Source: Leptotrichia sp. oral taxon 879 str. F0557
GTDB taxonomy: Bacteria > Fusobacteriota > Fusobacteriia > Fusobacteriales > Leptotrichiaceae
Assembly (NCBI RefSeq): GCF_000469385.1
Contig: NZ_KI271343.1
Span: 1-64,000 of the forward strand
Direction: 5' to 3'
Length of the DNA: 64,000 bases
Position 1 is the stretch's first letter, and each line of letters starts with the position of its first letter. This document shows, in pieces, positions 2,513-17,260 of this stretch. A program made the translations under genes and the position numbers. Below the pieces are notes generated by a model, which saw nothing but the letters and a program-made list of their open reading frames with translations, searched no databases and was not told where the DNA came from.

Positions 2513-2632
2513 TTTATTTTAATATAATTTTCCAAAATTGTCAACAATAAAATTTTAACTTTAATAAATGTTATATTTAATTTATCAACAATTTCCAATA
2601 TTTTCTTACCTATTAAAAAATTAAAAATAAAA

Positions 2633-2658
2633 CCCACTAGTTATAAATAACCAGTAGG
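2633..2658 (-). terminator. Terminator of the candidate toxin mRNA
   Basis: Eleven-base-pair stem (2633-2643 with 2648-2658, including two G-U pairs) around a four-base loop. On the minus strand it is followed by TTTTATTTTT. It lies 30 bases after the small toxin ORF and would end a transcript of roughly 200 nt. Confidence 0.65.
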
Positions 2659-2688
2659 CAAAGGTAGGAGAAAATCAATTCAAGCTGA

Positions 2689-2760
2689 CTATCTTTGATG
2701 GCTAAAAATTAAGAAAAGAATGATTATAGCCAATAAAACAGTCCAGTCTTGATTAATCAT
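2689..2760 (-). CDS. Candidate type I toxin: 23-residue single-helix membrane peptide
   Basis: A short ORF reads MINQDWTV, then an unbroken hydrophobic run LLAIIILFLIF, then the polar tail SHQR and TAG. A strong ribosome site GGGGGTGG ends 5-6 bases before the ATG. The size and architecture (polar end, one transmembrane helix, charged tail) match type I toxins such as Ibs, TisB or Fst, though I see no clear sequence match to any named family. It has its own promoter, 5' hairpin and terminator, and the sequence directly before the ribosome site is exactly complementary to a small RNA encoded just upstream. Toxicity is inference from this arrangement. Confidence 0.65.
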   Translation of the reverse strand: MINQDWTVLLAIIILFLIFSHQR

Positions 2761-2772
2761 CTTGACCACCCC

Positions 2773-2819
2773 CAATCTATATGCTTTGTTGTCGTTTAAG
2801 TTTGCGGAGCTTAATCGAC
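2773..2819 (-). promoter_or_regulatory. Toxin mRNA 5' leader: terminal hairpin and antisense target
   Basis: The expected transcript begins at about 2819 with a hairpin: GTCGATTAAG (2819..2810) pairs with CTTAAACGAC (2800..2791) apart from one mismatch, leaving a loop that contains TCCGCA (2808..2803). Then comes AAGCATATAGATTG (2786..2773), immediately before the GGGGGTGG ribosome site. The 14-mer is the exact complement of a segment of the upstream small RNA, and the loop TCCGCA is complementary to TGCGGA (2876..2871) in the same RNA. This is the layout expected for translation control by antisense pairing next to the ribosome site. Confidence 0.6.
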
Positions 2820-2824
2820 AGAAT

Positions 2825-2853
2825 ATTATATCATAAAAAATACCCCCATTCAA
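2825..2853 (-). promoter_or_regulatory. Promoter of the candidate toxin mRNA
   Basis: TTGAAT (2853..2848), 17-base spacer, TATAAT (2830..2825) on the minus strand. The -35 lies inside the terminator hairpin of the upstream small RNA, so the two units are packed without spare sequence. The expected start is about 2819, exactly at the foot of the 5' hairpin. Confidence 0.65.
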
Positions 2854-2910
2854 TTAAGAACGAGGGATTTTCCGCATTTTTTCTATAAGCATATAGATTG
2901 TTTTTTATTC
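2834..2910 (-). ncRNA. Candidate antitoxin small RNA, encoded in tandem upstream of the toxin
   Basis: A predicted RNA of about 77 nt on the same strand as the toxin. It starts about 7 bases after its own TATAAT and ends at an imperfect hairpin (CCCTCGTTC with GAATGGGGG) followed by TATTTTTT. It contains CAATCTATATGCTT (2900..2887), exactly complementary to the toxin mRNA next to its ribosome site (2786..2773), and TGCGGA (2876..2871), complementary to the loop of the toxin 5' hairpin. A tandem antitoxin acting by a separate antisense segment recalls IstR/tisB and OrzO/zorO, except that those pairs are divergent. Ends are estimated. Confidence 0.6.
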
Positions 2911-2916
2911 AAAAGT

Positions 2917-2945
2917 ATTATATCATTTTTCAAAAAAAAAATCAA
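2917..2945 (-). promoter_or_regulatory. Promoter of the candidate antitoxin RNA
   Basis: TTGATT (2945..2940), 17-base spacer, TATAAT (2922..2917) on the minus strand. It closely mirrors the toxin promoter about 90 bases downstream. Confidence 0.6.
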
Positions 2946-16864: not shown

Positions 16865-16892
16865 TTGACATTTTTATAAAATATGCTATAAT
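16865..16892 (+). promoter_or_regulatory. Strong promoter of a candidate small RNA
   Basis: TTGACA (16865-16870), 16-base spacer, TATAAT (16887-16892): both hexamers match the sigma70 consensus perfectly. No ORF with a ribosome site follows before a terminator about 60-80 bases later. Confidence 0.65.
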
Positions 16893-16898
16893 AAATGT

Positions 16899-16980
16899 GT
16901 AAAAATCCCTAAGGGAGACTTTGTATAATATTTAAAAAAAATGTGCTATAAATTAGACTGGATTTTTCCAGTCTTTTTTG
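16899..16980 (+). ncRNA. Candidate small RNA or attenuated leader upstream of typA
   Basis: A predicted transcript of about 80 nt from a consensus promoter to an intrinsic terminator (AGACTGGA 16955-16962 pairing with TCCAGTCT 16967-16974, then TTTTTT). Near the 5' end it has a small CCCT/AGGG hairpin (16907-16916), and its centre is unpaired and A-rich. It has no convincing ORF and I recognise no Rfam family. The typA start is 280 bases beyond the terminator, with no other clear promoter, so it could be either a stand-alone RNA or a terminated leader. Confidence 0.5.
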
Positions 16981-17260
16981 TTATAATATTTAGGTGAATT
17001 TAACTATAATTCATATATTAAAATTATTTAATAAATATATTTTATAAATTTATTTTAACGAAAGATCAAATAAAATCTTGCTTATTATTTTTTGTTTAAT
17101 ATAGCATTGTGAAACTAAAAATATAAAAAATTATAGAAAAAATAAATATTGATTTAAATATTAGTTAGGATATATTTGTAAAATAAAAATATTGAATAAT
17201 CTATTGAAATTTTAAAAATTTAAGGAGGAAATATTAACAAGAAATTTGTTAAAATAAAGG

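Follow-up and report, generated by a model that had tools for sequence, protein, structure and literature searches.

Locus organization

The window examined here is a 64,000-nucleotide (nt) stretch of Leptotrichia sp. oral taxon 879 str. F0557 (contig NZ_KI271343.1, positions 1 to 64,000), whose minus strand carries, between a reductase gene and copA, a compact module in which a putative antitoxin small RNA precedes, on the same strand, the gene of a 23-amino-acid (aa) membrane peptide that is probably a toxin. Read 5′ to 3′ from position 2945 to position 2612, the module comprises a promoter (P1), an RNA of ~77 nt, the terminator of this RNA, a second promoter (P2), a 5′ hairpin, a target for the RNA, a Shine-Dalgarno (SD) sequence, an open reading frame (ORF), and a terminator:

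2917–2945, minus strand: promoter P1 of the antitoxin RNA, read from the sequence as TTGATT (2945–2940), 17 base pairs, and TATAAT (2922–2917)
2834–2910, minus strand: putative antitoxin small RNA of ~77 nt, its inferred ends lying between P1 and its terminator
2887–2900, minus strand: 14-nt antisense segment CAATCTATATGCTT, the exact complement of 2773–2786, co-varying with the target in relatives
2871–2876, minus strand: second contact of the RNA, TGCGGA, complementary to the mRNA leader loop and co-varying with it in relatives
2836–2866, minus strand: intrinsic terminator of the RNA (hairpin 2866–2843 plus a T run, from the sequence), which houses the −35 box of P2
2825–2853, minus strand: promoter P2 of the toxin mRNA, TTGAAT (2853–2848), 17 base pairs, and TATAAT (2830–2825), with an extended −10, TGATATAAT; read from the sequence and conserved across copies
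2791–2819, minus strand: 5′ hairpin of the toxin mRNA, predicted by folding, with the loop TCCGCA (2808–2803)
2773–2786, minus strand: target of the antitoxin RNA, AAGCATATAGATTG, a 14-nt exact match to the RNA that abuts the SD on its 5′ side
2766–2772, minus strand: SD sequence GGGGTGG (GRGGTGG in nearly all copies)
2689–2760, minus strand: probable toxin ORF of 23 aa, MINQDWTVLLAIIILFLIFSHQR (codons 2760–2692 plus stop), hydrophobic and conserved as peptides of 21 to 24 aa across Leptotrichia
2659–2670, minus strand: anti-SD element CTCCTACCTTTG in the 3′ untranslated region (UTR), pairing with the SD in the minimum-energy mRNA fold
2612–2658, minus strand: terminator of the toxin mRNA (hairpin 2658–2633 plus a T-rich tail), from sequence and folding

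The antitoxin RNA is predicted to fold into an open 5′ part followed by a strong terminator hairpin. Among homologous copies, P1 occupies the same place in nearly all cases (TTGA / TA(T,C)AAT), a TTGA box is conserved inside the RNA terminator hairpin, and the stems of the mRNA 5′ hairpin vary in sequence while their pairing is kept.

A preliminary description of this DNA had proposed a type I toxin-antitoxin locus, and all of the elements that it named are present on the minus strand at the same positions, including the 14-base pairing right before a strong ribosome site (CAATCTATATGCTT/AAGCATATAGATTG is exact and adjoins GGGGTGG) and the six-base kissing contact TGCGGA/TCCGCA (2876–2871 / 2808–2803), which co-varies in relatives. 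Two details call for revision: the neighboring gene taken for a flavin reductase encodes instead, as read from its sequence, a TrxB-like thioredoxin reductase, and the statement that the module has no spare sequence is too strong, in that the RNA of the orthologues L009 and L010 is longer by a 6-nt insertion. Overlooked there were the 3′-UTR anti-SD lock and a second family of modules (family B; the family of the window copy is family A), both of which are described below.

Co-variation and specificity of pairing

The co-variation and orthogonality of the RNA-target pairing are the strongest facts in the case. Among 21 copies less than 95% alike, with energies obtained by duplex folding of selected segments, cognate RNA-mRNA duplexes average −29.1 kcal/mol versus −13.0 kcal/mol for non-cognate ones, and 20 of the 21 pair best with their cognate; none of 20,000 permutations matches the observed pairing sum (minimum −389 versus observed −610), and shuffled RNAs give about −8 to −16 against the same mRNAs. 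Two copies with almost the same ORF and ribosome site can still differ in their pairs, as seen by comparing CAATCTGTGTG/CACACAGATTG (L020) with CAATCACGAGG/CCTCGTGATTG (L021), and the loop contact varies in step on both sides (TGCGGA/TCCGCA, TTGTGAA/TTCACAA, TAGCG/CGCTA, TTGCA/TGCAA, and GGTGAA/TTCACC). Overall, 51 copies resolve into roughly two dozen groups that cross-pair. For nine copies residing in one genome the matrix is diagonal (−24 to −31 for cognate pairs and −4 to −19 for all others), and these copies are mutually orthogonal.

Conservation and distribution

Family A numbers ~50 homologous copies on Leptotrichia chromosomes and small plasmids. The window sequence finds matches in 12 of 13 Leptotrichia genomes, and a peptide search returned 37 matches, almost all within this genus. 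According to the preliminary description, its reading would be refuted if peptide, pairing, and promoters were not conserved in relatives; the opposite was found. In 21 dissimilar copies, P1, P2, and the terminator of the RNA persist, as do the leader hairpin, the ribosome site, and a small hydrophobic ORF. A covariance model spanning terminator, P2, leader, and start was built from 21 sequences; its sole match within the window is this locus (8.4e-20, the window copy being among the 21 inputs), and its best matches reach 1e-23 in Leptotrichia and 7e-17 in oral taxon 221 (G014). Across 98 genomes of the phylum, this model found nothing convincing outside Leptotrichia and oral taxon 221 except one family-B copy; weak matches in G009, G024, G087, and others were dropped after inspection. 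Multiple copies are present in most genomes (11 model matches in G008), and the position between copA and the reductase gene is common to G000, G002, G003, and G008, with a truncated copy there in G010. Unannotated plasmid-borne copies occur on pJCM16775-3 (5.4 kb, L. hofstadii), pJMUB3934p3 and pJMUB3936p3 (7.9 and 8.2 kb, L. wadei), pJMUB3870-2 (15 kb, L. trevisanii), and a 38-kb plasmid of oral taxon 221. At L282 and L283 (G014 and G012), a peptide, MINRDFLVFIILVVILTFWFNRTK, is accompanied by a leader hairpin and by no matching antisense RNA, and is conserved in two genera.

Other searches mark the limits of sequence similarity. The peptide belongs to no Pfam, NCBIfam, PHROG, or PADLOC family, in agreement with the earlier failure to match it to a named toxin. 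Neither viral contigs, searched with the peptide profile, nor phage records gave a match; the profile's matches outside the genus (E values of 0.002 to 0.05) are mostly chance fragments of larger ORFs, that in G014 (L237) being real. A tblastn search of plasmids with the 23-aa peptide missed copies that a DNA search recovered, and a loose promoter/ribosome-site pattern run against genome and viral collections returned mostly chance AT-rich matches, of which the L. hongkongensis match alone is real. A scan of the window with Rfam 15 gave no match at the gathering score and no element resembling a ligand domain. The RNA chaperone Hfq (Pfam PF17209) was not found in any of the 13 Leptotrichia genomes by a search that was positive in control genomes, an absence that fits the long perfect RNA-mRNA pairing.

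A predicted lock in the 3′ UTR

In the predicted fold of the full-length mRNA, the ribosome site is hidden by the anti-SD element of the 3′ UTR, and elements of the CTACC, CACC, or CCTCC type, located directly 5′ of the terminator, pair with GRGGTGG in most copies. The fold of the window mRNA has a z score of −6.45 versus shuffles (−5.6 and −5.4 for two diverged copies), and swapping 3′ UTRs between copies worsens the fold, none of 20,000 permutations reaching the native sum. Energies of the local SD–3′-UTR duplexes alone are no better than those with shuffled UTRs (mean z of −0.5), and the lock therefore belongs to the whole mRNA fold; its support comes only from that fold and the swap test. 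The 3′ UTRs of different subfamilies do not align, and alignment-based covariation was dropped for this region. The target of the antitoxin RNA is predicted to stay accessible in the full-length window mRNA (0.91 unpaired; 0.15 to 0.76 in other copies), and in a predicted read-through RNA from P1 it is almost fully paired with the antisense segment (0.00 to 0.30 unpaired).

One-sided decay

In at least eight family-A copies, the toxin ORF is broken and the RNA, P1, and P2 are kept. RNA and terminator persist in L010 (start codon, ribosome site, and frame damaged), L070 (frameshift), L235 (start lost), L272 (frame lost past codon 9), L276 (ORF replaced), and L278, L279, and L284 (target, ribosome site, and start deleted). 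The reverse, in which the RNA is lost and the toxin kept, is rare.

A second family and partner exchange

Family B, traced from a weak model match in another genus (L255, G022), has the same order of parts as family A and unrelated peptides (for example, MVDFIAIFILFVIIYYSLNR, MEDVIVLLVIMYITYRLTR, and MRTFLFVLVVFLLIQGILY). Its terminator and target differ from those of family A, its P2 has an extended −10, and a CCCTAAGGG element is conserved. The family-B model finds matches in 20 of the 98 genomes, all of them Leptotrichiaceae, and the two families together amount to roughly 115 model or sequence matches. Pairing is again specific: in 20 dissimilar representatives, cognate duplexes average −20.0 versus −10.2 for non-cognate ones, with none of 20,000 permutations as good. 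The window itself contains a family-B remnant, in which the one-sided decay recurs (toxin gone, RNA kept):

16865–17006, plus strand: family-B remnant (model R2) retaining P1 (TTGACA/TATAAT), RNA, terminator, and the −10 of P2; target and toxin ORF gone

The R2 match (E value of 2.2e-8) covers model positions 31 to 89 of 136. The remnant lies upstream of a gene for a TypA/BipA-like GTPase, and intact copies precede the same gene in G002 (L316) and G008 (L313).

In three genomes, a family-B toxin mRNA is mismatched to the RNA upstream of it and matched by the RNA of a neighboring module 0.2 to 2 kb away. In G011, two modules ~2 kb apart have exchanged RNAs (−10.6 and about −10 with their own RNAs, −24.0 and −27.4 when exchanged); in G008, a toxin mRNA scores −5.5 with its own RNA and −21.8 with that of the adjacent module, whose toxin is gone; and in G015, a toxin mRNA is matched by an upstream RNA-only remnant (−23.6 versus −9.9). 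From predicted pairing, these mismatches argue for action of the antitoxin RNA in trans and for a requirement that the cell encode a matching RNA somewhere.

Further arrangements accompany family B. The exchanged modules of G011 are L312 and L322 (C1, 581–583 kb), with apparently an insertion element between them, and L330 (G008:C1:1943400-1944800) and L333 (G010:C78) are head-to-tail arrays of family-B modules. In family-B loci such as L309 (1440–1760), the 5′ CCCTAAGGG of the RNA is complementary to CCCTTAGGG at the end of the mRNA 3′ UTR, which could be either a further RNA-mRNA contact or the terminal repeats of a unit. Separately, L171 (near 3335 and 3675) and L129 (near 6671, in a metagenome-assembled genome of the Selenomonadaceae) carry small ORFs in repeated form, MDKFFVMIITIIIILMFLSGKAA among them, together with a conserved leader, CAGGCGGTT...CCTCAGAAATGAGGTGA; by sequence, these look like another family of small membrane peptides.

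Interpretation and alternatives

We read the locus as a tandem, same-strand module in which a small RNA would silence the mRNA of a 23-aa membrane peptide, probably a toxin, and assign this reading a probability of roughly 85%; at the level of sequence, the toxin-antitoxin interpretation of the preliminary description is supported. The word toxin is inferred from the type of peptide, its tight control, the pattern of decay, and carriage on plasmids. In the proposed mechanism, P1 would give rise to a short, abundant antitoxin RNA that stops at its own terminator, and P2, its −35 box built into that terminator, to the mRNA of a single-helix membrane peptide. The RNA would first contact 6 nt in the mRNA 5′-hairpin loop before zipping onto the 14 nt that adjoin the SD, forming a duplex that would block ribosome entry and would probably be destroyed by RNase III. 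A second lock would close when the finished 3′ end lets the anti-SD element pair with the ribosome site, rendering the full-length mRNA inactive; such an mRNA could be awakened by loss of its 3′ end, or could be active while nascent. Read-through RNA from P1 is predicted to be silent because its target is paired with the antisense segment in cis. Once the RNA is exhausted, through plasmid loss or a stop in transcription, surviving mRNA would make a membrane-damaging peptide, and plasmid-borne copies may in this way bring about plasmid addiction.

Several observations weigh against this reading. In the divergent copies L277 and L282/L283, the ORF is intact and there is no convincing pairing, with P2 off consensus in its −10 or spacing, and L039 (G010) has an intact toxin ORF next to a replaced RNA gene, its P2 having lost the −35 and kept the extended −10. 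In the test of the 3′ lock, relatedness among the 3′ UTRs and coding constraint are partial confounders. Moreover, some harmless regulators are likewise peptides of 19 to 24 aa with a single hydrophobic stretch, and the peptide might be a non-toxic small membrane protein (e.g., a stress or membrane-tuning peptide) under a dedicated small RNA regulator. We consider this improbable, given that the asymmetric decay, the presence of several orthogonal copies in one genome, the location on small plasmids, and the tight double repression all typify addiction modules.

The shared strand of RNA and ORF, together with the pairing predicted for the read-through RNA, would also suit a cis-acting leader, in which transcription from P1 passes a leaky terminator and the antisense segment folds onto its own ribosome site, so that the locus would be an attenuator, or a leader akin to a riboswitch, governing a small membrane protein with no trans antitoxin. 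We regard this as very unlikely: the two parts are set apart by a conserved strong terminator and by a further near-consensus promoter, likewise conserved, three genomes have the matching RNA in a neighboring module and a mismatched RNA in the adjacent position, and the window shows neither a resemblance to ligand domains nor an Rfam match. Chance or low complexity in AT-rich intergenic DNA, or a decaying repeat element, would account for the base composition and for weak short matches elsewhere in the genome, which are AT-rich background, but has a negligible probability and is already refuted by covariance-model matches down to 1e-23, two co-varying contacts, and the z score of the mRNA fold; conservation (the model match, 12 of 13 genomes, co-variation of both contacts) is what excludes it.

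Beyond the silencing module itself, we tentatively consider that it represents a new architectural class of RNA addiction module, a same-strand chassis that carries at least two unrelated peptide families across the Leptotrichiaceae, in which new orthogonal specificities may keep arising and partners may swap by recombination, the latter being possible because the RNA would act in trans. If so, placement of the P2 −35 box inside the RNA terminator would mean that loss of the antitoxin also weakens the toxin promoter, a built-in fail-safe, and selection against cross-neutralization between chromosome and plasmid would drive specificities apart.

Comparison with known systems

By published definition, the antitoxin of a type I system is encoded on the opposite strand, overlapping or nearby (PMC12390103), whereas in the Leptotrichia module the RNA and toxin gene stand in tandem on one strand. 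Other attributes of type I systems are present at the sequence level: a small hydrophobic peptide (21 to 24 aa with a hydrophobic core, in ~50 copies) and RNA-mRNA complementarity (14 + 6 nt, with cognate specificity in 21 representatives). P1 and the RNA terminator, both conserved, would make the putative antitoxin a separate small RNA. The module is type I by its predicted mechanism and not a standard member under that definition (PMC12390103).

The known non-overlapping or trans-pairing type I systems are arranged divergently, as the preliminary description stated, in agreement with a review: in tisB/IstR-1, shoB/OhsC, zorO/OrzO, and dinQ/AgrB, the toxin and RNA genes diverge, and RNA binding takes place far upstream of the ribosome site (PMC4147584). 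With these Escherichia coli systems the module shares a small hydrophobic peptide, a separate adjacent small RNA gene, and limited complementarity in the toxin-mRNA leader (21 nt for IstR-1); it differs in its tandem order on one strand (in all copies examined), complementarity in the form of an inverted repeat, a target abutting the SD, and a P2 −35 box inside the RNA terminator, and there is no sequence relation. The par locus of pAD1 (Fst, RNA I/RNA II) and Fst/Ldr resemble it in having plasmid and chromosomal copies and a translational block through short dispersed complementarity, and par likewise involves intramolecular control of the ribosome site. The par/Fst transcripts converge on a common terminator (PMC4147584), unlike the tandem Leptotrichia pair, whose peptide also lacks any Pfam or NCBIfam match near the cut-off.

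Concealment of the ribosome site by the full-length mRNA fold recalls hok/Sok and AapA/IsoA. The AapA mRNA has a long-range fold, implying activation by 3′ processing. In the hok mRNA, too, long-range 5′-3′ folding hides the ribosome site, and the mRNA is inactive until 3′ processing (PMC4147584). The antitoxins of both systems are true opposite-strand antisense RNAs, and Sok acts through the mok leader ORF; the Leptotrichia RNA, in contrast, lies on the same strand and targets the ribosome site region, which is predicted to be open to it even in the full-length mRNA. Type III systems (ToxIN) have the same-strand order of RNA, terminator, and toxin gene. There, a single promoter serves a repeat RNA that binds a protein endoribonuclease (gene of ~170 codons), unlike the two promoters, base-pairing, 23-codon ORF, and absence of a repeat array seen here.

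Type I systems were known only from Proteobacteria, Firmicutes, and Tenericutes until a 2025 report from a cyanobacterium (PMC12390103). Like msoT1/msoA1 of that Microcystis report, the present module is a type I-like system outside the three classical phyla; the msoA1 antitoxin overlaps the msoT1 toxin gene on the opposite strand (PMC12390103). Full-text searches of the open-licence literature, which is incomplete, found no publication joining Leptotrichia with type I systems and none that describes a type I module in tandem on one strand, and the layout is apparently undescribed. Published searches seek opposite-strand, overlapping RNAs and would miss it. The two families also suggest that tandem modules are worth seeking in other bacteria. 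The copies form a candidate set of orthogonal RNA repressors, and the two families, with their natural specificity switches and partner swaps, offer unusually rich data on the co-evolution and orthogonality of antisense RNAs and their targets.
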